Origin: Chelativorans xinjiangensis
GTDB lineage: Bacteria > Pseudomonadota > Alphaproteobacteria > Rhizobiales > Rhizobiaceae
Length of the DNA stretch: 47,062 nt
NCBI RefSeq assembly: GCF_009812055.1
Contig: NZ_WQNH01000038.1
Location: 1-47,062, forward strand
Direction: 5' to 3'
Below, piece after piece: positions 1,842 through 47,062 of the stretch. Both the position numbers and the translations under genes were made by a program. The notes under the pieces are model-generated. The model saw only the letters and a list, made by a program, of their open reading frames with translations, searched no databases and was not told the DNA's origin. Within the stretch, counting starts at the first letter, position 1. Each line of letters starts with the position of its first letter.

Positions 1842-1910
1842 GGCGCCCGCTCTTTAACCCCAACCGCCGATGGTGCGGCAGTGATTGATCCCGGCAATAT
1901 TGGTAAGAGC

Positions 1911-2918: not shown

Positions 2919-2992
2919 ACCTGAGAGTGTTGGATGCCGCGCCCCTTCGAGCCTGTCTCGTCGGCGAGGGTGGGAATCGGCTATGAAGCGGC

Positions 2993-3559: not shown

Positions 3560-3639
3560 ACAACGGCCATGACTTCGTAAGCCGCTTCGGCTAACCTTCA
3601 TCCCGTCGGGCGCGGGCGTGGAAATCGGGAGTAGTCTTC

Positions 3640-4533: not shown

Positions 4534-4563
4534 TCATCGATTGCTCCGAAGGGGGATTGCGGA

Positions 4564-5073: not shown

Positions 5074-5077
5074 AACC

Positions 5078-6280
5078 CTAACGCTCGGCCAGCGCCGGCT
5101 CGCCCTTCTTCTCGCGGATCAGGTTGACGAAGCGGCGGAAGAGATAGTGTGAATCCTGCGGGCCGGGGGAGGCCTCCGGGTGGTGCTGGACCGAGAAGAC
5201 GGGACGCCCGACGAGGCGGATGCCGCAATTGGAGCCGTCGAAGAGGGAAACGTGTGTTTCCTCGACGCCCTCGGGCAGGCTGTCGCTGTCGACCGCGAAG
5301 CCGTGGTTCATGGAGACGATCTCCACCTTGCCGGTGGTGAAATCCTTGACCGGATGATTGGCGCCATGGTGGCCCTGATGCATCTTGACGGTCCTGGCAC
5401 CGAGCGCCAGAGCCAGCATCTGATGGCCGAGGCAGATGCCGAAGATGGGAACATCGCTCTTCAAAAGCTCGCGGATCATCGGCACGGCATATTCGCCCGT
5501 CGCCTCCGGATCGCCGGGCCCGTTGGACAGGAAGATGCCGTCCGGGTGCATGGCCAGGATGTCCTCGGCCGTGCTGGTGGCAGGCACCACCGTCACCTCG
5601 GCGCCGAGGCTTGAAAGCAGGCGCAGGATGTTGCGCTTGACGCCGTAGTCGACGGCGACGATATGCAGTGCGGTCTCACCGGTCGTACCAAAGCCCTCGC
5701 CCCAAACCCAGGGGGTCTCGCGCCAGGTGGAGGACTGGCCGGAGGTGACCTGCTTGGCGAGATCCAAGCCGACGAGCCCGCTCCAGGCCTTCGCCTCGGC
5801 CATGAGCGCCTCCACGTCGAACTTTCCGTCCGGTGCATGGGCGATGACCGCGTTGGCGGCGCCCTTCTCGCGCAGGAGCGCGGTCAGCGCCCGCGTATCC
5901 ACCCCCGACAGGGCGACGATGCCGCGGCGCTTCAGCCATTCGTCGAGGTGTTCGGCCGAACGGTAGTTGGACGGTTCGGTGATGTCGGCACGGAAGATGG
6001 CGCCCACTGCGCCGGCGCGGGCAGCCGGCGTCAGGTCTTCGATGTCTTCGTGATTCGCGCCGACATTGCCGATATGTGGAAAGGTGAAGGTGACGATCTG
6101 GCCGGCGTAGGAGGGATCGGTGAGGATTTCCTGATAGCCGGTGAGCGCTGTGTTGAAGCACACCTCGCCCACGGCCGAGCCTACGGCACCGAGCCCGTAT
6201 CCTTCGATCACCGTGCCGTCGGCCAAGACGAGCAGCGCCGTCGGCTTGGTCTCACCCCAGGGCGCGCTTGTCATTGCCAT
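5078..6280 (-). CDS. carA: Carbamoyl-phosphate synthase small (glutaminase) subunit
   Basis: A 400-residue glutamine amidotransferase subunit that supplies ammonia to CarB for carbamoyl phosphate, used in pyrimidine and arginine synthesis. The N-terminal CPSase_sm_chain domain (about 15-150) includes [16 protein letters not shown]. The class I amidotransferase domain follows (about 205-390), with the nucleophile C283 in GICLGHQ and H367/E369 in HHPEASPGP. The start at 6280 is supported by GGAG seven bases upstream. carB is not in the window, which is common in this order. An inverted repeat lies about 150 bases upstream. Confidence 0.98.
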
Positions 6281-6432
6281 TTAGAATCTCCATCTACAGG
6301 GAGGCCTTGAAATATGTTCCGCCGTGCGCCATATCGCCCGGCGACATGCGAAGGGAGATGGCGTAAAGCCGCAGTCCCTTGCCAACACAGTTAATGTCCA
6401 TGCAAGGCGCGGACGATAGACGAAGGCCAGCA

Positions 6433-6449
6433 AGCGGTCAATTACCGCT
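6433..6449. promoter_or_regulatory. Inverted repeat in the carA-yqeY divergent region
   Basis: AGCGGT and ACCGCT form a perfect 6-bp inverted repeat around CAATT. It lies about 150 bases upstream of carA and 118 bases upstream of yqeY. It could be an operator for either gene. No regulator can be named from the sequence. Confidence 0.3.
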
Positions 6450-6511
6450 CGGGAATTGCTTGTGTCCGATTAACATAAGAATCCCAGCAACTTACAAGAT
6501 AGCGAAACGGT

Positions 6512-6540
6512 TTGCGTCACAAGTCAGTCGGCGGTATGGT
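6512..6540 (+). promoter_or_regulatory. Likely sigma-70 promoter for yqeY
   Basis: TTGCGT (6512-6517) and TATGGT (6535-6540) are separated by 17 bases. Transcription would start near 6547, just ahead of the GGGAG ribosome-binding site at 6553-6557 and the ATG at 6567. This is inferred from spacing and consensus only. Confidence 0.4.
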
Positions 6541-6566
6541 CGCCACTGCGACGGGAGATGAATGCC

Positions 6567-7016
6567 ATGCGCGAGAAAATCGCCCAGGCGCTGAAAGACG
6601 CCGTTAAGGAACAGGACAAACGACGCATCTCGACGTTGCGTCTGATCCAGACGGCCATCAAGGATCGCGACATCGCCAATCGCGGAGCCGGCAAGGACCC
6701 GGTGAGCGACGAGGACATCATGGATATCCTCATCCGCATGGTGAAGCAGCGCAAGGAATCGGCCAAGGGCTTCGAGGAGGGAAACCGCCTCGAACTCGCC
6801 GAGCAGGAGCGCGAGGAAATCGGCATCATTGCCGAATTCCTGCCCCGGCTCCTTGGCGAGGACGACATGAAGAAGGCCTGTGCAGAAGTCGTCCACGAGG
6901 TGGGCGCCGACGGGCTGCGCGACATGCGCCGTTGCATGAACGCGCTCAAGGAGAAGTTCCCCGGCCGAATGGACCTCGGCAAGGCGAGCGGCATCGTCAA
7001 GAATATGCTGCAGTAG
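6567..7016 (+). CDS. GatB/YqeY domain-containing protein
   Basis: A 149-residue YqeY-like protein. The family shares the helical tail domain of the GatB subunit of amidotransferases that make Gln-tRNA and Asn-tRNA, and it may bind tRNA; its exact role is not established. The opening MREKIAQALKDAVK and the STLRLIQTAIKDRD stretch are characteristic. ATG 6567 is chosen over ATG 6558 because GGGAG at 6553-6557 lies nine bases before 6567 and only overlaps the earlier start. rpoD/dnaG, frequent neighbours in this order, are not present downstream. Confidence 0.9.
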   Translation: MREKIAQALKDAVKEQDKRRISTLRLIQTAIKDRDIANRGAGKDPVSDEDIMDILIRMVKQRKESAKGFEEGNRLELAEQEREEIGIIAEFLPRLLGEDDMKKACAEVVHEVGADGLRDMRRCMNALKEKFPGRMDLGKASGIVKNMLQ

Positions 7017-7045
7017 GGGGCGAGGTTCACCCCCCTCACTGCATC

Positions 7046-7447
7046 TCACTGACCTAGGTCGACACTCACGGCAGCTGCATAGTCGCGAAAGAAAGCCGCC
7101 GCGCCATCCGCGTCGACCTCGCCGGCGGCCAGCGACATGGCGAATGCGTAGACCGTGCCGTTATCAGCGGTCATGCGGTAGCCGTTCAGGAGCAGGAAGG
7201 TGCCTGCCGCGACGATTGCCGTGCGCTTGTTGCCGTCTACGAATGCATGGTTGCGGGCAAGGCCGAAAGCATAGGCCGCTGCCAGCGTGAAAACATCGGG
7301 TTCGCCGTAGGCAGCCTTATTCTCGGCACGCGCCGACGTTGATTCGAGGGCGTTGTCGTCTCTGATGCCGTGGGCGCCGCCATGGCGGCGCAATTGCTCT
7401 GCGTGCATAGCCTCCACCGCCAGCGGGGAGAGGAACTCCCAGCTCAT
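7046..7447 (-). CDS. doc: Type II toxin-antitoxin system death-on-curing (Doc) family toxin
   Basis: A 133-residue Fic-fold protein of Doc length. The active-site motif H67-A-F-V-D-G-N-K-R75 matches HxFx(D/A)xNKR. Doc of phage P1 phosphorylates elongation factor Tu and stalls translation; other Fic proteins transfer AMP. The reading frame is intact, so the toxin is probably functional. Its first codons overlap the end of the upstream antitoxin gene by four bases, giving translational coupling in the usual antitoxin-first order. Confidence 0.92.
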   Translation of the reverse strand: MSWEFLSPLAVEAMHAEQLRRHGGAHGIRDDNALESTSARAENKAAYGEPDVFTLAAAYAFGLARNHAFVDGNKRTAIVAAGTFLLLNGYRMTADNGTVYAFAMSLAAGEVDADGAAAFFRDYAAAVSVDLGQ

Positions 7448-7665
7448 TCGGCCAGCTTCTGCAACGCGACTTTGTACTGATCCATGATCTCGTGTGCGGC
7501 CTTCAACTGCCGCTCGAAAGCGTCATCGACCGGCTGAAGAGCCAGTCGCTCACCCTCCTCCACCACATTTAGCACATCGCCGGCTTTCAGATTGTGCCGG
7601 GCGAGCAGTTCCTTGGGCAGGATAACGCCCTCGGAATTGCCGATCTTTCGGATGGTAACGTTCAT
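7444..7665 (-). CDS. AbrB/MazE-type antitoxin
   Basis: A 73-residue protein with an AbrB/SpoVT swapped-hairpin DNA-binding domain at residues 1-47 (IRKIGNSEGVILPKELL, then DVLNVVEEG) and a charged helical tail (about 48-73) that should bind and neutralise the toxin. The start at 7665 has AAGGAG eight to nine bases upstream. A perfect palindrome just beyond that is the likely autoregulatory operator. Doc is classically paired with Phd, so an AbrB-type partner makes this a mixed pair. Confidence 0.9.
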   Translation of the reverse strand: MNVTIRKIGNSEGVILPKELLARHNLKAGDVLNVVEEGERLALQPVDDAFERQLKAAHEIMDQYKVALQKLAE

Positions 7666-7677
7666 GGCCGGCTCCTT

Positions 7678-7701
7678 ATGTTATAACGCAGGATATAACA
7701 T
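7678..7701. promoter_or_regulatory. Palindromic operator of the antitoxin-doc operon
   Basis: ATGTTATA (7678-7685) and TATAACAT (7694-7701) are perfect 8-bp arms around an 8-bp spacer. The site sits directly upstream of the antitoxin ribosome-binding site, where an AbrB-type antitoxin would be expected to bind and repress its own operon. The arms resemble -10 elements on both strands. Confidence 0.6.
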
Positions 7702-7803
7702 CATGCGCTGCGCCGGCAAGGGTTGGCTTCCCCCATTCCCTGAAGCAAGATCGACGCGTCGTAGCGCGACCCAACTGATCGAGGTCGTCAGAAGGAACTT
7801 GAA

Positions 7804-8748
7804 ATGAGCGATATCCCTCCTCGGCCATCCTCGGACCTGACGCACGACCATGTGTTTCTCGGTGACGATCACCGGCGCAACGAACGTCGGACGTGGCTCG
7901 TCATCGCGCTCACTGCCACCATGATGGTGGCCGAGATCGCCGCCGGGACCATCTACGGCTCCATGGCGCTGGTCGCGGACGGCTGGCACATGTCGACCCA
8001 TGCCGGTGCCATGCTGATCACCGCGCTCGCCTACCTCTTCGCGCGGCGCAACGCGCGCAACCCGCGTTTCACCTTCGGCACCGGAAAGCTGGGCGACCTC
8101 GCGGGCTTTGCCAGCGCCATCGTGCTGGTGCTGATCGCGTTGCTCATCGGCTGGGAGAGCCTTCTGCGCCTTCTCAATCCCGTGAACATCAGCTTTCCGC
8201 AGGCCATTTCCGTGGCCGTGCTCGGCCTCATCGTCAACCTTGTCTCGGCCTGGCTACTCAGGGGGGGCCATTTCCATGATCATCACGCCCATGATCATCA
8301 CGCCCATGATCACGGGCGGCACCGGGATCATAACCTGCGTGCGGCCTATCTGCATGTGCTGGCCGACGCTCTGACGTCTCTCCTTGCCATCGTCGCCTTG
8401 ACGGCCGGAAGCATGTTCGGCTGGATCTGGCTCGATCCGATGATGGGTATTGTCGGAGCGCTCGTGATCGCCCGCTGGTCCTGGGGCTTGATTCGCGATG
8501 CGGGTGCCGTTCTGCTCGATTACATCCCGCCGGACGAAAACCTACCTGAGAAGATACGCGCCGCGATCGAGACGGACGGCGACCGGATCACCGATCTGCA
8601 TGTCTGGCGGCTGGGGCCGGGCCATCACGGCGCCATCGTCTCGCTTGCCACGCGCGCGCCCAAGAGCCCTTCCCAGTATCGCAGCAAGCTCGCCCACATT
8701 CACCAGCTCTCCCATCTCACGATCGAGGTCGAACCTTTGCCGGCATGA
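7804..8748 (+). CDS. dmeF: CDF family Co(II)/Ni(II) efflux transporter (DmeF-like)
   Basis: A 314-residue cation diffusion facilitator, an inner-membrane metal/proton antiporter with about six helices and a cytoplasmic C-terminal domain. Helix 2 carries D59-G-W-H62-M-S-T-H66 where zinc exporters usually have HxxxD. Helix 5 carries H184-x3-D188. A histidine-rich loop (about 156-176) lies between helices 4 and 5. These features match DmeF, which exports cobalt and nickel. The dmeR regulator gene usually found upstream in rhizobia is missing; a toxin-antitoxin module occupies that side. Confidence 0.88.
   Translation: MSDIPPRPSSDLTHDHVFLGDDHRRNERRTWLVIALTATMMVAEIAAGTIYGSMALVADGWHMSTHAGAMLITALAYLFARRNARNPRFTFGTGKLGDLAGFASAIVLVLIALLIGWESLLRLLNPVNISFPQAISVAVLGLIVNLVSAWLLRGGHFHDHHAHDHHAHDHGRHRDHNLRAAYLHVLADALTSLLAIVALTAGSMFGWIWLDPMMGIVGALVIARWSWGLIRDAGAVLLDYIPPDENLPEKIRAAIETDGDRITDLHVWRLGPGHHGAIVSLATRAPKSPSQYRSKLAHIHQLSHLTIEVEPLPA
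8274..8315 (+). repeat. 15-bp in-frame tandem repeat in dmeF
   Basis: CCATGATCATCACGC occurs at 8274-8288 and 8289-8303, with a partial third copy after it. It encodes the HDHHA units of the metal-binding loop. The unit length is a multiple of three, so copy number can change without breaking the frame. Confidence 0.75.
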
Positions 8749-8764
8749 GGGAGCGTTTGCGGCC

Positions 8765-9754
8765 TTACAGCCACCCTTTCCGGCGGAAATAGAACAGCGG
8801 CAGGATGGCCGACAGGACCATGATCCCCAGAGCCACCGGATAGCCCCAGGGCTCGTCGAGCTCCGGCATGAAATGGAAGTTCATTCCGTAGATGGAGGCG
8901 ATCAGCGTCGGCGGCATCAGGCCGACGGCGGCGACGGAGAATATCTTGATGATCGCGTTCTGTTCCACCGAGATGAGCCCGACGACGGTGTCGAGCAGGA
9001 ACGTGATCTTGTTCGACAGGAAGTCGACGTAGTTTTCCAGCGACTGCGTATCGCGCTCCAGCGACTTGATCCAGGTGCGCGTCTCCTTGCGTGGCTCGGC
9101 CTCCGCCGCCACCTGGACATAGGCGAGCAGCCGGCTGATGCCCGACAGGCTCTCACGCACCTTGGACAGAAAGGCGCCTTGGCTGCCGATCCGCGTCAGC
9201 AGGCGGCGGAACTCCTTGGTGCTCATTGGGCGTTCGGCGGCTTGCCTCTGCAAGATCGCCTGCGAGGCGGTCTCGATCTCCTCCGTCACGCCTTCCAGGA
9301 TATCAGCCAGCCGATCGGTGGTCGCCTCGATGATGCCAAGCATGACCGAGCGGCCGCTGCACTTGGGGCCGAGGAGGCCGCTGCCGGGTTTGGTGGCGCG
9401 GCCGATATAGAAGTCAATCGCCTTGGGTTCGCTATAGCGTACCGTGACGAGCAGCCTGCCGGTGAGCACGAAGGAGACGGGGGCGATCTTCCGGTGCCCC
9501 ATGTCGACCTTGTGGAGGATGGGCACGGTCAGATACTTCACGCCCCCTTCCGTATAGAAGCGGCTCGATTCCTCGATCTCGGCCATGTCTTCGGTGGTCG
9601 GGATGGCGGCCCCCGTCCAGGCTTCCACCGCCTTGTCTTCCTCGGCGGAAGGGTTGAGGAGATCGATCCACAGGGTGTCGGCGGGCAGGGCCTCGCCCGG
9701 CTTCGGGTCGACCCGGCGAAGATAGTCACCTTCGATGCAGAAGACCTGGATCAT
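8765..9754 (-). CDS. corA: Magnesium transporter CorA family protein
   Basis: A 329-residue CorA-type divalent cation channel. The long N-terminal cytoplasmic domain with extended helices (about 1-260) leads into two C-terminal transmembrane helices. The selectivity signature Y-G-M-N (289-292) and the loop MPEL follow the first helix, and the protein ends in a basic tail (FRRKGWL). The start at 9754 is preceded by GAGGAG with good spacing. It converges with dmeF across 16 bases. Magnesium is the usual substrate; cobalt or nickel transport is also known for the family. Confidence 0.93.
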   Translation of the reverse strand: MIQVFCIEGDYLRRVDPKPGEALPADTLWIDLLNPSAEEDKAVEAWTGAAIPTTEDMAEIEESSRFYTEGGVKYLTVPILHKVDMGHRKIAPVSFVLTGRLLVTVRYSEPKAIDFYIGRATKPGSGLLGPKCSGRSVMLGIIEATTDRLADILEGVTEEIETASQAILQRQAAERPMSTKEFRRLLTRIGSQGAFLSKVRESLSGISRLLAYVQVAAEAEPRKETRTWIKSLERDTQSLENYVDFLSNKITFLLDTVVGLISVEQNAIIKIFSVAAVGLMPPTLIASIYGMNFHFMPELDEPWGYPVALGIMVLSAILPLFYFRRKGWL

Positions 9755-9817
9755 GGCGTTGTCTCCTCGAAAGACGCGCCGAGGCTGAATATCAGACCAT
9801 TATCGCTGCTGAAAGTT

Positions 9818-11933
<2,116 letters not shown>

Positions 11934-24988: not shown

Positions 24989-25357
24989 TCAGGAAGAGCG
25001 GGGCTTGGGCTGTTTCTTTCCGTTCGGCGCTTCGGCCATGTCGTCGTGCACCGAACCTTCCCACAGGCGGTAGCCGGCAGCGTAGGCGGCCTTGGCCAGG
25101 AGATGGGCGGAGATGGGCGCCGTCAGCAGGAGGAAGATGATCGCCGCCAGCGCCCGCGTCACCGTCGAATGATCCTGGGCGAACAGCGCGAGGGCCAGCA
25201 GAAGCACGCCGGCGCCCAGCATACCCGCCTTCGAGGCGGCATGCATACGCGAGTAGAGATCCGGCAGGCGCAGAAGCCCGATGGCGGCGGCGAAGGTGAA
25301 GAAGGAGCCGACGAGCATTAACGAGCCCACGAGGAGGTTTTGCAAAAGCTCAATCAT
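24989..25357 (-). CDS. mrpG: Monovalent cation/H+ antiporter subunit G
   Basis: A 122-residue membrane subunit with three transmembrane helices in its first 90 residues and a charged, lysine-rich tail ending KKQPKPRSS. The motif [13 protein letters not shown] is diagnostic of MrpG/MnhG/PhaG. It is the last gene of the seven-subunit antiporter and is needed for assembly of the complex. The start at 25357 has GGAGAAGAG upstream and overlaps the end of mrpF by eight bases. Confidence 0.94.
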
Positions 25358-25688
25358 CGCTCTTCTCCACGAATTGCCCACGTGCCTCGTCCGAGATGAA
25401 CTCTTCCTCGTAACGTCGGCTCATCACGAAGCGGGCGAAGGCGACGGTGGCCAGGAAGCCGACGAGGCCGAGCGCGATGGCGATATCGAGGTAGAGTGTG
25501 TAGCCGGTGCGGATGCCGATGACGACGATGAAGCCGATGGCGATCGTCACCAGCATGTCGAGCCCCAGGATCCGGTCGGGCAGGCTGGGGCCGATGACGA
25601 CGCGCAGCACCGTGAGCAGGAAAGACAGGCTCAGGATGGCGAGCGCCGCCTGCTCGGCGAAGGCGAGGAAATCCTGTCCGGCAATCAT
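25350..25688 (-). CDS. mrpF: Monovalent cation/H+ antiporter subunit F
   Basis: A 112-residue subunit with three transmembrane helices and an acidic C-terminal tail. The segment [14 protein letters not shown] is the family signature (GPSxPDRxxxLD), and the conserved Asp in it is functionally important in characterised MrpF. It overlaps mrpE by four bases (ATGA) and mrpG by eight, so translation is coupled. Confidence 0.94.
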
Positions 25689-26158
25689 CGGAACGCCTCC
25701 ATGATCCTGCGTTCGAAGCCCTGCGCGATGTCGCGCCGGAGCGCGTCCGGATCGGAGCAGTCGATGGCGTGGATGTAGAGGAACTTGCGGTCCTCCGACA
25801 CATCGACCGACAGCGTGCCCGGCGTCAGCGTGATGAGGTTGGCGAGAAGCGTGATCTCGAAATCGCGGTCGGCCTTCAGCGGAAAGGCGAAAATGCCGGG
25901 CTTCAGATCCATGCGCGGTGACAGCACGAGCACCGCCACCCGCCAGGCCGAAAGCACCAGTTCGTAGAGGAACAAGGCGGCGAGCGCGATAAGCTTGAAG
26001 CCGCGCCGGAAATAGCCGAGCGAACCCACCTGCTCGCGTATGAGATAGAGCGCCAGCGCGCCAAGCAGGAAGCCGAAGACGATATTGGCGAACGTGAAGG
26101 AGCCGGTGATCGCGGCCCAGATCAGCGCCAGGAGGATGTTGATGAGATAAAGGGTCAT
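25685..26158 (-). CDS. mrpE: Monovalent cation/H+ antiporter subunit E
   Basis: A 157-residue subunit with hydrophobic segments at about 1-20, 25-42 and 58-80 and a soluble C-terminal domain. The stretch [18 protein letters not shown] is characteristic of MrpE. The subunit is structural in the Mrp complex. Its start overlaps the mrpD stop by four bases. Confidence 0.94.
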
Positions 26159-27714
26159 TGCGCCGCCCCCTCGGGGAAGACCGTGCCGATATAGGCTGGC
26201 GCGTCGAGGATGGCGCTCGCCGCCCGTTCAGCGACGCTGATCACCGGGTCGGGATAAAGGCCCATGACCACCACCGGCAGGGAAAGCACGGCAAGCGCCA
26301 CATAGCCCAGATACGGCGAGGCCGGAGTCTCGGGGCCTGCCACCACCCGCGGCCGCCAGATGGTGAGGATGAAGACACGACCGAGCGCCAGCGTGGTGAG
26401 AAAGCCGGTGGCCAGGATGGCGAAGGCAAGCCAGGGCTGGCCGGAATCGAGCGAGGCCCGCACCAGCATGACCTTCGGCCACAGCCCCGAGGCCGGCGGC
26501 AGGCCGGCCGCCGCCAGCATCAAGAGCAGCGCAAAGGCGGCGACCAGGGGATTTGAGGCATAGAGGCCGGAAAGCTTGCTGAGCGAATAGCTGCCGCCGA
26601 GGCCATTCATCACCCCGGCGAGCAGGTAAAGCGCCGTCATGACGATCATCGAATGGAAGGCGTAGAATACCGTGCCGGCGAGGCCTTCCGAAGTGCCTAG
26701 CGCGAGGCCCGCCAACATGACGCCGACGCCGGAGATGACAACGAAGCCGAGCACGCGGCGCAAATCCGTCTGCGCCAGCGCGCCCATAATGCCGATCACC
26801 ATCGTCGCCGCCGCCACCCAGGCGATGAGGCCGGACAGGAGCTCGAGTTCCGGCGGGAAGAGCATCACCAGCGTGCGTAGCAGCGCGTAGACGCCGACCT
26901 TGGTCAGTACGCCGCCGAAGAGCGCGGCAGTGACGATCCGCGGCGTATGGTAGGAGGCGGGCAGCCAGAAATTGACCGGGAAGGCGGCCGCCTTCATGCC
27001 GAAGGCGAGCAGGTAGAGCACGGCAAGCGTGGTGAGCGGCGCGTTCTCTCGCAGCCCGTCCGCCTTGCGGGCGATATCGGCCATGTTGAGCGTGCCGAAG
27101 GTGCCGTAGAGGAGGGCGGTGGCAGTGAGGAACAGCGTTGTGCCGACGAGGTTGAGGATGGCGTATTTGGTCGCCCCGTCGAGCTGCTTGTGCTGCGAGC
27201 CCAGCACCAGGAGGCCGAATGAGGAGATGAGGAAGACCTCGAACCACACATAGAGGTTGAAGATGTCGCCGGTCAGGAAAGAGCCGCCGACGCCGGCCAT
27301 CATCAACATCATGAAGGGGTAAAAGCCGTAGCGCCGGCCCACCGCGCCGATGTCGGCAGTGGCGAAGAGAGCGCAGACGACTGCCACCAGCGTGGCGACC
27401 AGCGCAAGGGATGCGCCGAGCGCATCGGCCGCGAACGAAATGCCGAAGGGCGGCAGCCAGCGCCCCATGGTCATCACCAGCGGGCCCTGGTCGAGCACGC
27501 GCGCCAGAAGACCGATATTGCACAGAAGAGCGGCAAGGAGGCCAGCCACGGCAAGGCCCGCATGCAGCCGCGTCTCGTGGCGCACCATCAACAGGATGGC
27601 GCCGGTGACGATGGGGATTGCCACCGGCCCCACCACCAGCCAATCGGCGGGCGTGGCGGGCGCCAGCACCATGGCTCCCGAAAGATCGACTGCTTGACCG
27701 GGTTCGATTGCCAT
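26155..27714 (-). CDS. mrpD: Monovalent cation/H+ antiporter subunit D
   Basis: A 519-residue NuoM/NuoN-like proton-translocating subunit with about 14 transmembrane helices. Key residues aligned with complex I are visible: E159 in WFEVF, K241 in FGMKAAAFP and K272 in GGVLTKVG. The first 25 residues precede the first helix. The start at 27714 has GAGG upstream; the frame is open for 35 codons more, but that region is the mrpC gene. Only seven bases separate it from mrpC. Confidence 0.96.
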
Positions 27715-27721
27715 TGGCGCC

Positions 27722-28099
27722 TCAATATCCGAGCGGCGGGAGGGCTTCGCCCTCGGGCTCGGCGACCCGCATGCCGTCCGTGTCGTCTGTGCCCAGCTCC
27801 TGATAGGCGCGGAAGGCAAGGACCAGAAGGAAAGCGAAGATGGAAAACGAGATGACGATCGCCGTCAGGATGAGCGCCTGCGGCAGCGGATTGGCTGTGA
27901 TCCGGTCGGGCGTGTCGAGGCCCTCGGGGATGATGGGCGGCACTTCGCGCACGACCCGGCCCGCGGTGAAAATCGTCAGGTTCACGGCGTTCGAGAAGAT
28001 CGCCACGCCGAGAAGGATGCGGATGATGTGCTTGGACAGCATCAAGTAGATCGACACGGCGAAGAACACGGCGACCGTGGCGGCAAGGATGGTTTCCAT
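27722..28099 (-). CDS. mrpC: Monovalent cation/H+ antiporter subunit C
   Basis: A 125-residue NuoK-like subunit with three transmembrane helices. The ADP-like loop segment LPQALILTAIVIS is the family mark (DPLxQALxLTAIVI). The tail is acidic and proline-rich. ATG 28099 overlaps the mrpB stop by one base and is preferred over the GTG one codon earlier; GGGAG lies upstream of it. Confidence 0.95.
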   Translation of the reverse strand: METILAATVAVFFAVSIYLMLSKHIIRILLGVAIFSNAVNLTIFTAGRVVREVPPIIPEGLDTPDRITANPLPQALILTAIVISFSIFAFLLVLAFRAYQELGTDDTDGMRVAEPEGEALPPLGY

Positions 28100-28518
28100 C
28101 ACGCGTGCTCCCTTTCCTCAAGCGCCAGCGCGATGGAGGTGATCGAGCCGACGACGACGAAATAGACGCCGATGTCGAAGAACAGCACCGTCGAGATGTC
28201 GACGGGCAGCCCCAAAACGTCGATCTCGGTCCATTGGCCGGTCAGGAAGGGCATGTCCATGAACAGCGACACCCCGCCCGACAGCGCCGAGACAAGCAGG
28301 CCGAAGCCGGAGATGGCCATCGGGTGGAAGTAGAGCGCGCGGCGCACCGGCGCCACGCCGCAGGCGATGCCGTAGATGGCGAAGGCGGAAGCGGCGATCA
28401 GACCGCCGATGAATCCGCCGCCCGGCTCGTTGTGGCCGCGCAGGAGCACAAAGATGGAGAACAACACCATGAGGCTGGCGAGATAAGGCGCGATGGTGCG
28501 GAAGATCAGGGTGTGCAT
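28099..28518 (-). CDS. mrpB: Monovalent cation/H+ antiporter subunit B
   Basis: A 139-residue MnhB-type subunit with four transmembrane helices. The [13 protein letters not shown] segment near residue 30 is the family signature. A separate mrpB makes this a group 1 (seven-gene) Mrp operon rather than the fused phaAB form. The start at 28518 has GGAGG seven bases upstream and lies against the mrpA stop. Confidence 0.95.
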
Positions 28519-28519
28519 G

Positions 28520-30892
28520 TCATGCCTCCACCTTTTCCACGGCCCTGGCCGGCTGCTTTTCTGCCTTGAGGGGCGCAACCCCCGGGCGGATGCGCACGAG
28601 CGCCAGGATGGCGAGCCCGGCGATCATCACCACGGCGATCTCGCCCAGCGTGTCGAGGCCGCGGAAGTCGACGATGATGACGTTGACGATGTTGCGGCCG
28701 TGGGCGATGACGCGGGCGTTCTCGGCGAAGAAGACGCTAAGGGTGTCGTCGAACGGTACTTGCGTGACGCGCAGCAGGATGAGGCCGAGGCCGGCACCGC
28801 ACAGGGCGGCAATCGAGATGTCGAGCATCTTTTGGCCGGTCGGCCGGTGATCTGCCGGTGACAGCCTTAACCGTGTCATGACGAGGGCCAGGATGACCAC
28901 CGACAACGTTTCCACCATGAATTGGGTGAAGGAGAGGTCGGGCGCACCGAGCAGCATGAAGATCAGCGCCACGGCGAAGCCCTGGATGCCGAGCGAGACG
29001 ATGGCCGTCAGCCGGTCGCGTGCGTGGAGGACCGCGGCAAGGCCGATGAAGCCAATGGCAAGCACCGCCAGTTCGTAGAACGGCAGGGAGGGCAGCGCGG
29101 GCATTGTCGGCAATTCACCGAAGGCGACCATCGGCACGAAAAGGGCGGCGGCCAGCGCGATGAAGGTCGCGGTCATGTAGACGTCGAGGCGCCCGCCCTG
29201 GACGATACCGGTGACGAAGGCCGAGAGCCGCACCGTGCCGCGCACGGCCTGGTCGAAGCCGCGGTCCGGGCCCCAGCCGATGGCGGTGAGCGTCGCCGCC
29301 ATCGCCGCGCGCCCGCGCTCCAGCGTGAGATAGCAGGCAATGCCGAGGGCGATGGTGAGCGCCGACAGAAGAAGCGGCAGGCCGATATGCGGGACCACGG
29401 AAATTGACACGGAAAGAGGCTCACCCGCCACGGCGCTGGCCATGGGGCTGGAGACGAAACGGTGGCTGAGGTCCGAAAAAAGCGCGGCCAAGAGGCCATC
29501 CACGGCCAGCACCAACGGTCCGAGCCACAACAATACCGGCCCTTCGTGCGGCGCCTTCGGCATCTTCACCCTCGCGCCGGTGAAGGGCTTGAGCGCCACC
29601 GCGAAACCGATGGCGAACATCAGGGCATTACCCAGCACCGCGGTGAGCGTGAGCAATATGCTCCAGCCGCTGGCGAAGCCGAGCCCGGCATAGATCTCTT
29701 CCTTGGCCAGGAATCCGAAAAACGGACCCAGGCCGCCCATCGAAAGCGCGGCGAGCACAGCCGCAATGAAGGTGACCGGCATGGCACTGCCGATGCCGCC
29801 GACCTTGGTGATGTCGCGGGTGCCCGTCTCATGATCGATGGCGCCGGCGACCATGAAGAGCGCACCCTTGAACATGGAGTGCGCCACCAGATAGAGCACC
29901 GCGGCCTCCACCGCGACCTCGGAGCCAAAGCCGGTCAGCATGACGAGCAGCCCCAGCGAAGCGACCGTCGTGTAGGCGAGCATCAGCTTGAGGTCGGTCT
30001 GGCGCAGCGCCAGAAGCGTGCCGATGATGAGCGTCGTACCGCCGAAGACGGGCAGGATCGTCTCCCACGCCGGCGTTTCACCCATCACAGGGTTAAGGCG
30101 CATGACGAGATAGACGCCCGCCTTCACCATGGTGGCCGAATGCAGGTAGGCGGAAACCGGGGTGGGCGCTTCCATGGCGTTGGGTAGCCAGAAATGAAAC
30201 GGGAACTGCGCCGATTTGGTGAACGCACCGCCAAGAACCAGGAGGAGCGCCGCCATGTAGAGCGGCGCCGCACGCAGAACCTCGCCCTCGGAAAGGAGCG
30301 CCGAGAGGGAAGCGGCGCCGGTGATGTTGGCAATGACCAGAAGCCCCGCCAGCAGCGACAGTCCGCCCAGCCCCGTCACCACCAGCGCCTGGAGCGCGGC
30401 GCGGCGCGAGGCTTCGCGCGAATGGTCGAAGCCGATCAGGAGGAAGGAGGTGATCGAGGTGAGTTCCCAGAAGACGAACAGCATCAGAAAGGAATCGGCC
30501 ACCACCAGCCCCTGCATCGACCCCATGAACATGAGGATGAAGGAGAAGAAGCGCCCCAGATGCGGGTGGCCTTTGAGATAGCCGCCCGAATAGAGAACGA
30601 TGAGCGTGCCGATGCCGGAGATCAGGAGGGCGAAGGTGAGCGACAGGCCGTCGAGATACCAGGAGAAGTCGACGTCGAGGCTTTCGATCCAGGCGTAGCC
30701 GCCGGCGACCGTCTCTCCCTCCGCGACCGCCCCTAGGAAGCTGGTGAAGTGGTAGAAGATGAAAGCAGGAAAGAGCGCCAGGACCCAGGCAGCGTTATGC
30801 CCGAAGACGCGGGTCAGGAACGGGGCTGCAGCGGCGCCGAGAAAGGGCAGGATCAGCACAAGGAATGTCAACCACTGCCCGTCCGCTGCCAT
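28520..30892 (-). CDS. mrpA: Monovalent cation/H+ antiporter subunit A
   Basis: A 790-residue NuoL-like subunit, the largest of the complex, with about 20 transmembrane helices. The proton-path residues are present: E143 in FWELTS, K226 in [13 protein letters not shown], and H251 with K257 in HSATMVKAG. The C-terminal 180 residues hold the MbhD/MbhE-like extension where sodium or potassium translocation is thought to occur. The complex exports Na+ or K+ in exchange for protons and supports pH and salt tolerance. ATG 30892 is backed by GAGGGG. It is first of the operon and divergent from msrB. Confidence 0.96.
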
Positions 30893-31113
30893 GGGTTCCC
30901 CTCGTTCGATGTTTTGCAGCCTGCGATCCGGGTAAGATGATGAATACGCTTCGATCGCCGCCGTGACATAGACGTTCGCGTCAAGCGGGGCAAGGAGGGC
31001 GCGGCAATCCGCGCGGTTATTCACGAATTGTCGGCGCGAATTGCAAGATGGATGGCTGCAAAAGCGAGTTTTTGAACCCCATATAAGCGGCGGCACGAAC
31101 GGGAGCATCGATC

Positions 31114-40995: not shown

Positions 40996-41274
40996 GTGAT
41001 CAAGTCGTTCAAATCAAAGGCGCTGGCGGAACTGTGGTCGAAGGGCCGTACAGCGAAGATTGACGCCAGAATGCACAAGCGCATCCTTCTGCGCCTTGAA
41101 AGGCTTGAGGCAGCCGGAGCGCCGGAGGATGTGAACCATCCCGGCTTTGACTTCCACGCCCTCAAGGGCTTTAACCCGACGCGGTACACGATCCATGTGA
41201 ACGGGCCGTGGTGCATCACGTTCGAGTTCGAAGACAGTGATGCGCTCCACGTCGATTTCGAACAGTACCATTAG
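40996..41274 (+). CDS. higB: HigB-type RelE/ParE superfamily toxin
   Basis: A 92-residue toxin with the RelE-like fold. HigB proteins cut mRNA in the ribosome. The order is toxin first and antitoxin second, as in higBA. The motif ALKGFNPTRYTIHVNGPW and the following ITFEFED are typical. The start is GTG 40996. No ribosome-binding site precedes it, and the promoter layout suggests a leaderless transcript. G+C is lower than in PBP1A upstream, in keeping with a mobile module. Confidence 0.92.
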   Translation: MIKSFKSKALAELWSKGRTAKIDARMHKRILLRLERLEAAGAPEDVNHPGFDFHALKGFNPTRYTIHVNGPWCITFEFEDSDALHVDFEQYH

Positions 41275-41285
41275 GAGGCACTGCC

Positions 41286-41594
41286 ATGACTGTGTATCCC
41301 GCTATCAGAGATCCTGATCGCTGCCCCTCGCATCCAGGGGCGGTCCTGGATGATATCCTGATCGATCTCAATGTGACGAAGAGCGAGATTGCCGGCATGC
41401 TTGGCATTTCGCGCCAGCACCTGCATGACATTCTTGCCGAGCGCAAGCCGCTTTCCCCGACTATTGCCGTGAAGGTTGGCAAGGTATTTGGCGGAGGCGC
41501 CGCCTCGTGGCTGCGCATGCAGGCCGCTTACGACGCCTGGCATGCGGAGCGCGAAGTTGATGTCAGCGACCTTCCGACGCTTAACGCCGCCTGA
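41286..41594 (+). CDS. higA: HigA family antitoxin
   Basis: A 102-residue HTH-XRE antitoxin. The proline-rich N-terminal arm (HPGAVLDDIL) is the HigA signature, followed by the helix-turn-helix (about 28-60; KSEIAGMLGISRQHLHDIL) and a C-terminal helix with WLRMQAAYDAW. It should neutralise HigB and repress the operon at the palindrome upstream. The start at 41286 follows AGGAGGCACTGCC, a strong ribosome-binding site, 11 bases after higB. Confidence 0.94.
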   Translation: MTVYPAIRDPDRCPSHPGAVLDDILIDLNVTKSEIAGMLGISRQHLHDILAERKPLSPTIAVKVGKVFGGGAASWLRMQAAYDAWHAEREVDVSDLPTLNAA

Positions 41595-43149: not shown

Positions 43150-43247
43150 TCAGGCATCGTCGGAAAAGTGGGTTCGGCGGCGGGAGCCGCTTTTGGGGGT
43201 TCGGTCGGTGGCCGGGCCTCGATCTTCTTTTCGGCTAGGTTTTCGCG

Positions 43248-43279
43248 AGCGTCGGCGCCTTGGGCTCCGGCGCTTTTTT
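43248..43279 (+). terminator. Terminator-like hairpin in the terminase leader
   Basis: AGCGTCGG (43248-43255) pairs with CCGGCGCT (43267-43274) with one G-U pair, followed by a run of six T (43274-43279). It lies between the promoter and the small terminase start at 43307. It could release a small RNA of about 125 bases or act as an attenuator. Confidence 0.6.
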
Positions 43280-43306
43280 GTTGCGCGGATTTCGGGGAGA
43301 GGCGGG

Positions 43307-43840
43307 ATGCCATTGAGATATGTGCCGTCGGCACACGTGCACAGGTCGGCGCGGAAGGCCATGGAGGGCGGGCGGTTGACGTTTGCGCTCCTGGCGGACC
43401 TTACCGGGCGCTCGGAGAACCATTGGCGCGGCGTGGCCAGGGCCGAGGGCTGGCGCATCGCTGAGGCCGGGGGATCTGACGAGAAGGCCCCCGAGCCGCC
43501 TGCCGAGACGGACCCGGAGGCGCTGGAGACGCGGCTGGTGGCGCTTTCGGACGAGCTGGTGAGCGAACTGGAGGCGGCGGTCGGCGAGGGGCGGGCGTCC
43601 GGCAGCTACGACAAGGGAAGGATCGATGCGCTGTCTGCCATGCTGAGGATGGTCGAGAAGATCGGCGAGATGACCCGCGTGCCCGAGCGCGCGGCGGAAA
43701 GGCAGAAGAAAAGCGATGAAGAACTGGCCGCCGCGCTCGCCCTTATCGATGCCCGTATCGTGGAGCTCGCTTGTGAACTCGCTGCCACCATGGGCTGTGG
43801 AGAGGCTGACCCCGCCGATGGCGGAGAGGGCGCTGGCTGA
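43307..43840 (+). CDS. Putative GTA-type small terminase subunit
   Basis: A 177-residue protein. The N-terminus (about 5-55) resembles a helix-turn-helix (FALLADLTGRSENHWRGVAR). An acidic linker and a long helical region (about 78-165) suited to oligomerisation follow. This order is that of phage small terminases, and the gene sits directly before the large subunit, as in Rhodobacter-type GTA clusters. The family could not be confirmed by sequence alone. ATG 43307 follows GGGGAGAGGCGGG. Its end overlaps the large subunit gene by 68 bases. Confidence 0.65.
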   Translation: MPLRYVPSAHVHRSARKAMEGGRLTFALLADLTGRSENHWRGVARAEGWRIAEAGGSDEKAPEPPAETDPEALETRLVALSDELVSELEAAVGEGRASGSYDKGRIDALSAMLRMVEKIGEMTRVPERAAERQKKSDEELAAALALIDARIVELACELAATMGCGEADPADGGEGAG

Positions 43841-45068
43841 GTGGTTCGGCTCCGGACGGCTGCCGCAATATCCGGTGGGGGCGCGGCTTTGCGACACCTG
43901 GCTGGTGATGGGCGGGCGCGGCTCCGGCAAGACACGGCTGGGGGCGGAATGGGTGAACGGGCTGGTGCGGGGGCTGCCGCCTTTTTCAAACCATGAATAT
44001 CGGCGCATCGCACTGGTGGGGGAGACGTTTGCGGACGTGCGCGAGGTGATGATCGAGGGGTCTTCGGGGCTGCTTTCGATCTCGCGCGGCAACCGGCCGC
44101 GCTATGAGCCGAGCCGGCGGCGGCTCGTCTGGGACAATGGGGCGGTGGCGCAGGTGTTTTCCGCCGAGGATCCGGACAGCCTGCGCGGGCCGCAATTCGA
44201 GGCGGCATGGTGCGACGAACTTGCCAAGTGGAAGAACGGGGAGGCCTGTTTCGACATGCTGCAGTTCGGGCTGCGGCTGGGGCAGCGGCCCGTGCAGATG
44301 CTGACGACGACGCCGAAGCCGGTGCCGCTGATCCGGCGGCTGCTGGCAAGCCCGGACGTGACCGTGACGCGGATGCGCACGGAGGAGAATGCGCAGAACC
44401 TGGCGCGGCGGTTCCTGCGCTCGGTGGAGCGGAGCTATGCCGGCACGCGGCTGGGGCGGCAGGAACTGGACGGCGAACTGATCGAGGACCGCGAGGACGC
44501 GCTGTGGACGCGCGCCGGGCTGGAGACGGCGACGGGGCGCTGGGGCGAGGCGGGTCCGTTGCGCCGCATCGTCGTGGCGGTGGACCCGCCGGCGAGCGGG
44601 CGGCGCACGTCGGACGCCTGCGGGATCGTGGTGGCCGGGCTCGGCGCCGACGGGGCCGCCTGGGTGCTGGAAGACGGCACGGTGCGGGCGGCCAAGCCCG
44701 AGGTCTGGGCGGCGCGGGCGGTCGCGCTCTATCGCCGGTTCCAGGCCGACATGATCGTTGCCGAGGTGAACCAGGGCGGCGACATGGTGAGAAGCGTGAT
44801 CGGCACGGTGGATGCCACCGTTCCCGTGAAGGCGGTGCGGGCGAACCGGGGGAAGTGGCTGAGGGCCGAGCCGGTGGCAGCGCTTTATGCGCAGGGGCGG
44901 GTGCGGCATGCGCGGCGGCTTCCCGAACTGGAAGACGAGATGTGCGACTTCGGCACGGACGGCCTGTCGCAGGGGCGCTCGCCGGACCGGGTGGATGCGC
45001 TTGTCTGGGCGATCACCGAGCTGATGCTCGGGCGCACAAGCGAGCCGCGCATACGGGATTTTTTTTGA
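43773..45068 (+). CDS. Terminase large subunit, GTA/DNA-packaging type
   Basis: A 431-residue packaging motor. The ATPase half has Walker A GGRGSGKTR and the segment GPQFEAAWCDELAKW with the acidic pair, then the coupling motif LTTTPKP. The nuclease half has D in VAVDPPA, AEVNQGGDM and DRVDALVWA. These match the GTA g2 family (COG5323), which packages random host DNA. GTG 43773 has GGAG seven bases upstream; ATG 43818 is the alternative. The gene appears intact. The portal gene normally next is not found in the remaining 2 kb. Confidence 0.9.
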   Translation: MNSLPPWAVERLTPPMAERALAEWFGSGRLPQYPVGARLCDTWLVMGGRGSGKTRLGAEWVNGLVRGLPPFSNHEYRRIALVGETFADVREVMIEGSSGLLSISRGNRPRYEPSRRRLVWDNGAVAQVFSAEDPDSLRGPQFEAAWCDELAKWKNGEACFDMLQFGLRLGQRPVQMLTTTPKPVPLIRRLLASPDVTVTRMRTEENAQNLARRFLRSVERSYAGTRLGRQELDGELIEDREDALWTRAGLETATGRWGEAGPLRRIVVAVDPPASGRRTSDACGIVVAGLGADGAAWVLEDGTVRAAKPEVWAARAVALYRRFQADMIVAEVNQGGDMVRSVIGTVDATVPVKAVRANRGKWLRAEPVAALYAQGRVRHARRLPELEDEMCDFGTDGLSQGRSPDRVDALVWAITELMLGRTSEPRIRDFF

Positions 45069-45083
45069 AATCAAAGGTGAAAG

Positions 45084-45109
45084 CCAAGCCCAATCTCGTG
45101 CGGGCTTGG
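45084..45109. other. Hairpin between terminase and the modular repeat gene
   Basis: CCAAGCCC (45084-45091) pairs with GGGCTTGG (45102-45109) around a 10-base loop, 15 bases past the terminase stop. No T-run follows. It marks the point where base composition falls, and it could be a weak terminator or the edge of an insertion. Confidence 0.45.
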
Positions 45110-45146
45110 AGCACCGCTTATCATTTACCCAAAGGAGCAAGCTGAA

Positions 45147-46766
45147 ATGGCAGAGGTCATCTGTACGCATGAGGAGTGTGAAAGCATTCTTCTCTGCGAC
45201 AAAACAGAATCGTCGACGATTCCCTTCATCCGTAGGTTTTGCGAGGACGCTGATGGAAACGTTCGGGTTGAAAACATCGATCTAGAAGGAAGTATCTACA
45301 CTATTCAGGGCGAGATCGGCGCTTGCGGAGATAGACATGATCTTGAAAAGCAGGTCATGTGCGACGGTGCAGGGATAACCTTTCTCAGATGGTACGTTAC
45401 GCGTGACGGGCAGGCGACCGGCCAATTCTTCGACACAGATCTTGCCGGCGCGGACGTCGCGCCCGCCGATCCCGTAAAGGTGGGCGATTGCTGCGGTTGT
45501 GCAACTTCAACGACGCAACCGATGTGCGATGCAGGGGCACCCGCGGGGGACCCGGCTGACATCGCTTTCTCTGGGCTGTCCTGCCCAGGATCCGGCACGT
45601 CGTCCAATGGAGTCGATTGGCAGGTTGACCAGTGCGACTACGCGTTGCTTGGCTCGCCCCCGGTAGAAGTACTGCTTTTGGGCCAGGCAAATGACGGTCC
45701 ATTGCAGACGTGGACATTCGACCCCCCAGTCGATCTGGAGTTTGACCTACGCCCCTCGACAGCCGGCGCTGTTGGTTGTGTCGAGTTGCCGGAGGGGACC
45801 GAGGTTATAGAGCTGGCGGCAGGGGGCATGACATGGGACCCGGCCACCAGGCAAGCGTGCAGCACTGCCAGCACATCATTTAGAGCAGCGAACCGCTTCC
45901 GGATTAGAAATGCTACCAGCTTTCCTCTCAACGCGCTTGATCTTGGTTCAAACTCGTGGGGACTGGCTGGGCTGAACGTGACGCCCGTAGCATCCGGGCC
46001 GGTCCAATTTCTGAGGCATATCTGCCTCGACTGCGATGGCAACGTCGTCTCTTCCAGCGACACCACCGTTGACGGCGATGACTACGCTCCGGAAGGGGAG
46101 GTGACCGTAGGCGAGTGCCCCAGCGGTTCCGACGGTATCACGTCGACGACGCAGGCGCTTTGCGATGTCCTGCCCACGCCCCCTGTTGCCCCGTATACAT
46201 TTGATTTCGCCGCGAGCAACGAGGGGATAACATCCACGCCGGTGACGCAGGCCACCGCGCCCAACGGGGTCGTATATTCGATCAACCAGGGCTCTTGGTC
46301 GACCAACGGCTATTTTTCCCTTGGCAACACCACCGATACGCACCAGTGGACCTTCCACAACGGGCCCGTCGATCTGGAATTCGATATCCGTGATACGCAA
46401 CTTGCGGCTGTGAACAAATATCTGCAATTCCCAGAGGACACGGTGATGCTGGAGGTGACGCAACCCAATGTTACCTGGGATGACGTCGCAAAACGACTGA
46501 ACCGCGGCGCCCTATTCACGAATACCGCGTCCCCCAATCGTTTCCGACTGACGAATGTCAGCAGTCTTGCTCTCAGCGCCCCCAATGCGTTGGCCACTTG
46601 GGGATTGTTCGGACTGACCGTTACGCCACGGAACAGCGGCCCTGCTCCAGTGCAGTTCCTGCGACACATCACGTTTGACAGCGGTGGAGACGTTGTTTCT
46701 GTCGTGGATGTCAATCTGGACGGCACGGCGTACCAGACACAGGGGCAGGTTCAGCTTTGCAGTTAG
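45147..46766 (+). CDS. Modular repeat protein of unknown function in a GTA-like locus
   Basis: A 539-residue protein without signal peptide or membrane helix. It opens with a cysteine motif (C6-x4-C11-x5-C17, LLCDK). Four copies of a short unit starting F(I/L)R and containing DxxG, LDG or VDG and a closing Cys occur at about 27-60, 79-115, 288-324 and 504-538. Two copies of a longer beta-rich unit start TSTTQPMCD (120) and TSTTQALCD (332); each contains PVDLEFD(L/I)R, RFR and GL(N/T)VTP before running into PVQFLRHI. AAAGGAG precedes ATG 45147. G+C is visibly lower than in the terminase gene. I do not recognise the family; a structural or fibre-like role is inferred from context. Confidence 0.7.
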   Translation: MAEVICTHEECESILLCDKTESSTIPFIRRFCEDADGNVRVENIDLEGSIYTIQGEIGACGDRHDLEKQVMCDGAGITFLRWYVTRDGQATGQFFDTDLAGADVAPADPVKVGDCCGCATSTTQPMCDAGAPAGDPADIAFSGLSCPGSGTSSNGVDWQVDQCDYALLGSPPVEVLLLGQANDGPLQTWTFDPPVDLEFDLRPSTAGAVGCVELPEGTEVIELAAGGMTWDPATRQACSTASTSFRAANRFRIRNATSFPLNALDLGSNSWGLAGLNVTPVASGPVQFLRHICLDCDGNVVSSSDTTVDGDDYAPEGEVTVGECPSGSDGITSTTQALCDVLPTPPVAPYTFDFAASNEGITSTPVTQATAPNGVVYSINQGSWSTNGYFSLGNTTDTHQWTFHNGPVDLEFDIRDTQLAAVNKYLQFPEDTVMLEVTQPNVTWDDVAKRLNRGALFTNTASPNRFRLTNVSSLALSAPNALATWGLFGLTVTPRNSGPAPVQFLRHITFDSGGDVVSVVDVNLDGTAYQTQGQVQLCS

Positions 46767-46886
46767 CCGCGCAAGGGAAATCCCCGCGGCAACATCACCG
46801 TGACGATTGAACATCGACGACCGCGCGATGGCTGCCCGATAGCCTGCGCCGGCATCGTGACTTTCCAATCGAAAGCAATCCGAGTT

Positions 46887-46911
46887 GGGCGGCCCGCGTG
46901 CCGCCCTTTCC
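46887..46911 (+). terminator. Terminator-like hairpin between the repeat genes
   Basis: GGGCGGC (46887-46893) pairs with GCCGCCC (46900-46906) around a 6-base loop, followed by TTTCC. It lies 33 bases before the start of the second repeat gene. The T-run is short, so partial termination is more likely than a full stop. A smaller hairpin CTTTC/GAAAG is at 46861-46874. Confidence 0.5.
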
Positions 46912-46943
46912 AATTTCCCTCCCAATTTACTGGAGCGGCCCGA

Positions 46944-47062
46944 AATGGCTAGGACCACATGCGTATACACCGAATGCGAGACCTTCCTGCTTTGCGACAA
47001 GGTGGGAACGTCTTCGACCCCATTCATCCGCAGGATCTGCAAGGATGCCACCGGCACCACCC
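46944..47062 (+). CDS. Second modular repeat protein, N-terminal fragment (cut by window end)
   Basis: Thirty-nine codons are visible from ATG 46944, with GGAG upstream. The sequence is clearly paralogous to the start of the preceding gene: a cysteine motif C6-x4-C11-x5-C17, LLCDK, then PFIRR, a cysteine and KDATG, which begin the short repeat unit. The two genes therefore form the start of a tandem family. The rest lies outside the window. Confidence 0.8.

Follow-up and report, generated by a model that had tools for sequence, protein, structure and literature searches.

A phage-related cassette of repeat genes between the large terminase and portal genes of a gene transfer agent cluster in Chelativorans

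Background

Gene transfer agents (GTAs), tamed phages that move host DNA, are commonly seen as one-time prophages whose gene content has become fixed. Why, then, are the terminase genes of what looks like a GTA cluster in Chelativorans xinjiangensis followed by long repeat genes rather than by the portal gene? The stretch that raises this question, called the window below, is the entire contig NZ_WQNH01000038.1 (47062 bases; C51 of the source genome, G000, which comprises 5.69 Mb in 118 contigs). A preliminary description, made from the window alone, offered two answers: a cargo array inserted into a GTA head operon, or a reduced or diverged packaging system whose particles carry a repeat-built surface protein. 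The evidence presented here favors the first, in the form of a phage-related cassette that lies between the large terminase (TerL, gp2) and portal (gp3) genes.

A complete cluster split by the assembly

The features concerned are listed with their positions in the window or in C69 (locus L010), a second contig of the source genome.

43307..43840, + strand: GTA gp1, small terminase (TerS), 177 amino acids (aa), ATG at 43307; assigned by position
43716..45068, + strand: GTA gp2, large terminase (TerL), 450 aa; Terminase_6N E 3.3e-28, Terminase_6C E 1.3e-25 (Pfam)
45147..46766, + strand: rep1, a 539-aa modular protein; matches phrog_18824, E 2.9e-22
45189..45335, + strand: repeat module 1 of rep1; profile A1, E 1.5e-15
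45351..45500, + strand: repeat module 2 of rep1; profile A1, E 5.1e-14
45978..46127, + strand: repeat module 3 of rep1; profile A1, E 7.0e-18
46617..46763, + strand: repeat module 4 of rep1; profile A1, E 6.1e-18
46945..47062, + strand: start of rep2 (gene incomplete on this contig); module match 46984-47061, E 2.7e-5
C69 4687-4971: CPCC small membrane protein, 94 aa
C69 4990-5178: MGCGCGK peptide (MGCGCGKRF...), 62 aa
C69 5266-6438: portal; Phage_portal E 4.9e-84

Both terminases are intact, as the preliminary description had it. TerS, whose open reading frame (ORF) is in frame with a longer TTG-start version (43193-43840), had no match in a Pfam search; its homologues in two other Chelativorans genomes (85% identical in G001, 83% in G006) lie directly ahead of TerL. 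The two genes that follow, which had been called paralogous, are indeed both matched by the module profile, and the lower G+C noted for them is seen in rep1 (0.58 vs 0.70 for TerS-TerL).

Of rep2, only the first 39 codons (start MARTTCVYTECETFLLCDKVG) are in the window, since C51 terminates inside the gene. The final 88 bases of C51 are found again, exactly, in C69, and the opening 88 bases of C69 are repeated further along that contig; it is because these ends recur within C69 that the assembler would have stopped here. C69 is 26300 bases long (the same 26300-base contig is stored in IMG/VR as a viral record) and opens with a 1426-aa repeat-gene piece (L010:2-4282), which we take to be the continuation of rep2; the rep2 orthologue in G001 is a complete ORF of 1550 aa. 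The preliminary description had pointed beyond position 47062 for the missing structural genes, and C69 supplies them. The CPCC protein and the MGCGCGK peptide are followed by portal, DUF6107, prohead protease, major capsid, connector, head completion, tail completion and tail tube genes, then by GTA-gp10, a tape-measure-like protein (PHROG matches), DUF2460, baseplate hub families and NlpC/P60, and a GTA_TIM/Rcc01698 protein closes the cluster, which ends at C69 18053. The statement that there is no portal, protease or capsid gene is thus right for the window but wrong for the genome.

With TerS and TerL in the window and portal to GTA_TIM/Rcc01698 on C69, the gene set runs from gp1 to gp15 in the order of Rhodobacter capsulatus GTA (RcGTA)-like, or alphaproteobacterial type I, clusters, and shares their families (GTA_TIM, GTA-gp10, DUF2460, Peptidase_S78, HK97-type capsid and portal). 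Judging from the synteny with G001 and from the shared 88-base repeat, C51 and C69 are neighbors and the missing portal is an assembly break. By its gene content, the locus is a complete RcGTA-like head-tail cluster with an insert between gp2 and gp3, the TerL-to-portal distance being at least 7.2 kb in G000 (C51 and C69 summed) and 7.5 kb in G001. The idea of a cargo array inserted into a GTA head operon is therefore supported, since C69 completes the cluster around the insert.

Distribution of the cassette

We use "cassette" for the series rep1 - rep2 - CPCC small membrane protein - MGCGCGK peptide. Searches with profile A1 place it in the GTA cluster of 4/16 Chelativorans genomes (G000, G001, G006 and G013). 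Contig C36 of G001 is unbroken through TerS, TerL, rep1 (548 aa), rep2 (1550 aa), CPCC, MGCGC, portal and onwards to gp11, which is as far as that stretch was fetched. A single contig of G013, whose TerL is only 67% identical, carries a pair of repeat genes (for 1241 and 800 aa), the gene of a 174-aa protein containing a single hydrophobic stretch (hereafter the transmembrane, or TM, protein), CPCC and portal. The comparison of this junction in relatives, which the preliminary description had proposed, thus shows the cassette between TerL and portal on single contigs in G001 and G013; the clusters of G006 and G000, both split by contig ends inside the repeats, are consistent with the same position. 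A metagenomic GTA recorded in IMG/VR (L119, IMGVR_UViG_3300005281_000439) begins within its first repeat gene and shows the portal side of a cassette: two repeat genes, an MGCKC peptide, a TM protein, CPCC, a portal 86 bases beyond CPCC, and GTA genes to part of gp14. Its TM protein and CPCC are 68% and 69% identical to those of G013, whose portal is also the one nearest to its own (84%), and its gp3-gp14 homologues are 56-79% identical to those of G000.

Profile A1 matched one of 397 genomes of the order and one of 385 of the class, in both cases the source genome, and CPCC was likewise found in 1/397 order genomes, again the source genome; the order and class searches were a loose first look, in which only part of the candidates in large genomes was scored. 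Outside GTA clusters no repeat genes were seen in bacterial genomes, and in 4/4 carriers every match listed falls in the GTA cluster, so that relatives carrying the repeat genes with no GTA link, a possibility raised at the outset, were not found. Related repeats of low identity do occur outside any GTA in actinophages (see below).

In six Chelativorans genomes (G002, G003, G005, G010, G011 and G015) the portal match follows TerL after 22-298 bp, whereas in the source genome the repeat, CPCC and MGCGC genes intervene. The portal of G014, truncated where its contig stops, lies 65 bp from TerL; the 880 bp gap of G007 contains two small ORFs, G009 has an insert within TerL, and G004, G008 and G012 gave no portal match. 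On a tree of TerL plus portal (16 genomes) the four carriers need two state changes, G013 standing apart from the G000/G001/G006 clade; on a portal-only tree (17 rows) the well supported branches are compatible with one origin. GTA terminase and portal matches are spread widely through the order, as those of a sporadic prophage would not be: in the wider sample TerL was matched in 83/101 genomes and portal in 76/101 (own genome counted), some of which may be ordinary prophages.

Phage relatives of the cassette genes

The repeat module, about 52 residues long, reads roughly xxLCDxxxxGxxxxFLRxxxxDxxGxxxxxxDTxLDGxxYxPxGxVxxC. Rep1 is made up of four modules with two ~155-aa stretches between them, and contains 19 Cys. 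Profile A1 counts 4 modules in rep1, 8 in the C69 piece of rep2, 14 in rep2 of G001, and 11 and 5 in repA and repB of G013, and matched 0/650 shuffled repeat proteins at E 0.01. Because A1 was built with phage modules included, its phage matches are not independent. The phrog_18824 profile, which scores 1015 bits on phage protein PIS136_002, matches rep2 in five stretches (E 4e-45) and rep1 in three (E 2.9e-22). A tblastn search with the repeats reached Saccharomonospora phage PIS 136 (1e-8) and, less strongly, two Streptomyces phages (3e-5 and 2e-4); only 3/50,697 phage records were matched. The phrog_18824 proteins of PIS 136, Xkcd426 and Mischief19 resemble rep1 and rep2 in having the same module in tandem, but they belong to full phages of actinobacterial hosts, their identity to the repeats is low (28-35%), and in all three phages they are annotated as hypothetical. 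Xkcd426 and Mischief19, the Streptomyces phages, have their repeat genes between those for the major capsid and the major tail protein; in PIS 136 nearly all neighbors are hypothetical.

A structure model of rep1 (mean pLDDT, the predicted local distance difference test, 72.8) is almost all beta. In BFVD the rep1 model is matched best by I4AZD5 (E 2.9e-20) and A0A125RNU7 (E 4.8e-8), which from their length only (941 and 354 residues) we infer to be PIS136_002 and Xkcd426 gp18; the TM-scores are low (0.10-0.27), as may be for a domain chain. Scans of the viral_contigs set gave no relative for the PIS136 protein, two for the Mischief19 protein, one of them carrying repeat modules, and just L119's own contig for the L119 repeat and TM proteins. 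On C69 itself, positions 4516-4581 (between rep2 and CPCC) resemble the rep1 leader and start (75 columns, 71%, E 1.8e-7 in a tiny search) and are a possible remnant of a third repeat gene.

The small partner genes have phage relatives of a different kind. CPCC, conserved in W-DN-SN-AW, HWT and LW-DCPCC and then in a hydrophobic end, has a homologue (E 2e-16) in two Synechococcus phages, Yong-L2-223 and Ssp-JY38, immediately upstream of TerL-portal, and both phages encode MGCGCGKGKVRR... between CPCC and TerL, akin to the MGCGCGKRF... peptide; the large protein of these cyanophages had no PHROG match. In Mischief19 an MGCGCNK peptide is encoded just ahead of the capsid gene. Scanning viral_contigs with the CPCC alignment yielded 26 contigs, two of them Chelativorans GTA contigs; in 19 of the 24 others the TerL ORF, measured from its first possible start, begins -213 to +204 bases from the CPCC end. 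The same kind of small genes thus stands beside TerL or portal in these phages and IMG/VR contigs as in the cassette, with the difference that there CPCC is upstream of TerL. The TM protein of G013 gave no tblastn match in phages, and of the 50 records returned by a DNA search of the G013 stretch against phages, the five listed look like short chance matches. On these homologies, the insert is phage-related.

Evolution of the cassette

Between G000 and G001 the ratio of nonsynonymous to synonymous divergence (omega, by YN00) is 0.36 for rep1, 0.47 for the C-terminal part of rep2, 0.12 for CPCC and 0.69 for MGCGC (62 codons only), as against 0.02-0.11 for the four core genes (TerL, portal, capsid, protease). 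For the pair G000 and G006 it is 0.63 for rep1, 0.38 for rep2 region 206-667, 0.20 for CPCC and 0.03-0.08 for the core genes. Over the comparisons the rep stretches range from 0.33 to 0.63 vs 0.02-0.25 for these core genes; the YN00 run came with a numerical warning, and NG86 went in the same direction, with TerL up to 0.25. By these estimates the repeat proteins evolve faster than the core GTA proteins, under purifying selection. Since the synonymous divergence (dS) of the cassette overlaps that of the core genes, nothing points to the cassette having arrived very recently. The cassette genes are co-oriented, their frames are under constraint between three close species, and a related cassette occupies the same place in a second clade. 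Within rep2 of G001, direct comparison reveals three tandem 525-bp units that are 94-95% identical, and copies on C69 are also spaced 525 bases; TRF, with a longest period of 500, found nothing in the G001 repeat genes.

Possible roles of the cassette

We consider that the insert is an acquired, phage-related fibre or adhesin cassette between gp2 and gp3 that decorates GTA particles, with a probability of roughly 0.5. This reading draws on repeat homologues among the virion genes of two phages and partner genes beside TerL or portal in phages, as well as on the lack of a signal-like stretch, the faster protein evolution and the variable tandem units. The preliminary description had remarked on the absence of signal peptides, and hydropathy gave no TM or signal-like stretch in rep1 or the C69 piece of rep2. 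Its guess that the particles carry a repeat-built surface protein is plausible, given the actinophage head-region homologues, the TerL-adjacent partners and this lack of a signal-like stretch. Rep1 and rep2 would be made in the cytoplasm with the late GTA genes. Each would form an elongated string of beta domains, anchored at the particle's head or neck, and would serve as a fibre or adhesin for surface glycans of the recipient. The CPCC and MGCGC proteins would help in mounting or release, and the length and binding of the fibre would be adjusted as three-module units of 525 bp are duplicated or lost. In short, the cassette may help particles stick to cells.

A known system with such a job is the head spikes of RcGTA, whose fibres attach to the capsule (PMC7296036) and whose fibre gene lies outside the cluster (PMC11409702); the latter paper also mentions related phages with capsid fibre genes inside the structural region. 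If the fibre reading is right, rep1 and rep2 would do the same job as Rcc01079/Rcc01080, namely recipient capsule binding, but these consist of a jellyroll base pentamer plus one fibre (PMC7296036), whereas rep1 and rep2 match no Pfam family. The Pfam searches were made at E 0.1 for rep1 and at E 0.01 for the C69 piece of rep2, so that DUF2793 and other head-spike families are absent from both at those thresholds.

Several observations weigh against a fibre or adhesin. Position alone proves little because the junction holds other contents in many genera, and the cassette is dispensable, being absent from 12/16 Chelativorans genomes. Nor need a fibre be missing: DUF2793, presumably the base family of the RcGTA head spike (a link not found in the paper looked at), is represented in all 13 of the 13 Chelativorans genomes searched, three of them carriers, the protein of G000 sitting on another contig (G000:C13). 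A lectin-like domain in rep2 is a guess made by eye (E 0.19 to seed lectins); Pfam gave nothing usable for it, and the model was too poor to help (pLDDT 37.5). Sequence searches of the PDB returned nothing convincing (best E 0.0091 with the module profile, none with rep2), and the PDB fold matches of the rep1 model are low TM-score beta proteins only. As for the partners, L105, L106, L125 and L126 have neither TerL nor portal near CPCC within the stretch fetched, and L105 has an endolysin gene 1.9 kb upstream of CPCC, which fits a lysis role. An MGC-C peptide is found by pattern in 9/24 of the other viral contigs, which include several near duplicates (same scores) and hence fewer independent cases, and the MGCGC pattern was not found in G013. 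Among the IMG/VR CPCC contigs the repeat module is confined to L119 and the two Chelativorans ones, none of the 23 viral CPCC contigs other than L119 having repeat genes, and the actinophage stretches gave no CPCC match. As far as these searches reach, the parts occur all together in GTA clusters alone, and derive from different phages.

One may therefore also consider that the TerL-portal junction is simply a tolerant insertion site and the cassette a passenger, a phage-derived moron outside the particle, whether expressed or not. In 16 genomes, one from each of 16 other genera, the match positions leave a TerL-portal gap of ~1 to 19.5 kb (by arithmetic). The ORFs in 21 listed gaps (the 19.5 kb one of G090 left out) are mixed, many of them antisense or doubtful, and by eye include reductase, transsulfurase, GH19 and HicAB-like genes; none of 38 fetched junction loci had a rep or CPCC match. 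Moreover, the cassette is present in just 4/16 genomes and has a lower G+C, and Xu et al. 2024 report a lysozyme gene homologous to that of Rhizobium phage 16-3 between TerL and portal of Agrobacterium/Rhizobium RcGTA-like clusters (PMC11409702). That case is alike in that a phage-related gene is retained at the same GTA junction, and differs in being a single gene, where the cassette has several that encode long repeat proteins and their small partners. A phage gene at this junction is thus already published; in the literature searched, mostly without subscription papers, we found no published description of this cassette. Mere cargo is nevertheless unlikely in our view, since a like cassette recurs in the same place in two clades kept apart by the TerL+portal tree, and before the portal of L119, its genes are all co-oriented with their frames kept (omega below 1), and the partner genes belong beside TerL or portal in phages.

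More improbable still is a release or lysis module, in which CPCC and the TM-coiled-coil protein of G013 and L119 would be holin- or spanin-like and the repeat proteins hitchhikers or wall-binding factors. It would account for the hydrophobic stretches of CPCC (C-terminal, 19 residues at Kyte-Doolittle 2.07) and of the TM protein of G013 (2.67), for the endolysin gene of L105 and for the phage lysozyme at the same junction, but CPCC and the TM protein match no PHROG or Pfam lysis family, the endolysin scan covered L105 only, and most of the cassette consists of repeat genes. Finally, a reduced or diverged packaging system without portal and capsid, for which nothing speaks except that the window itself contains neither gene, can be dismissed as having next to no probability, since portal, protease, capsid, connectors, tail genes, an NlpC peptidase and GTA_TIM are on C69 and TerS to gp11 is unbroken in G001.

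If the fibre or adhesin reading is carried further, it is possible, though we advance this with clear reserve, that a domesticated GTA has re-acquired from phages a modular, quick-evolving fibre or adhesin cassette beside its portal gene, and that Chelativorans species differ in the long repeat fibres of their particles and hence in recipient range. In that case GTAs, like phages, would pick up and exchange modules for receptor binding, besides losing genes. With a conserved, fast-evolving, phage-related repeat cassette in the head operon, some GTAs seem able to take on new surface or accessory functions, and this matters for which cells share DNA with each other. The cassette also gives a setting to three uncharacterised phage families (the ~52-residue repeat, the CPCC membrane protein and the MGCGC peptide), and it points to the TerL-portal junction as a site of foreign gene uptake in GTA clusters.

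Other features of the window and of related clusters

Between TerL and rep1 the preliminary description had placed a hairpin.

45084..45109, + strand: 8-bp stem-loop in the TerL-rep1 interval; shuffle z -1.5

The stem exists but is weak. It is kept in three of the four carriers (G000, G001 and G006, not G013), 15/200 shuffles of the stretch fold equally well or better, and no T run follows it, and for these reasons we rejected it as a clear terminator.

Upstream of the GTA cluster the ORFs include penicillin-binding protein and toxin-antitoxin-like genes, the latter at 40996-41594, where a HigB-like toxin (Pfam E 1.8e-12) is followed by an antitoxin-like gene whose helix-turn-helix matches are slightly under the cut-off. 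After gp15 there follow, by eye, a response regulator, a sensor kinase, and then transposase- and intron reverse transcriptase-like ORFs. At ~25000-31000 the window has 6 kb of strong AT skew (0.18-0.34 per kilobase window).

In other genomes we observed further rearrangements around TerL. L052 (G029) and L054 (G024) have GH19-type endolysin-like ORFs (by eye) between TerL and portal, matching the published Agrobacterium lysozyme case. Four loci from four genera (L069 of G008, L134 of G019, L135 of G023 and L136 of G048) have an open frame of 823-836 aa in the GTA cluster, in which TerL residues 1 to ~170 (...AAWCDE) run in frame into the gp15 C-terminal part (LGC.A...NQPNVF...). The junction is the same each time, though the fusions are 39-55% identical; either a recurrent microhomology deletion or a kept chimeric protein could explain them. 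In two genera, an insert of ~10 kb is found near codon 407-422 of the GTA TerL (L042 of G009, ~1966-11837; L045 of G017, ~1486-11650). Both inserts contain a second portal-like match, ~27-30% identical to the GTA portal, and that of G009 has by eye capsid-, protease- and integrase-like ORFs; they look like prophage or satellite elements integrating into the GTA terminase gene.

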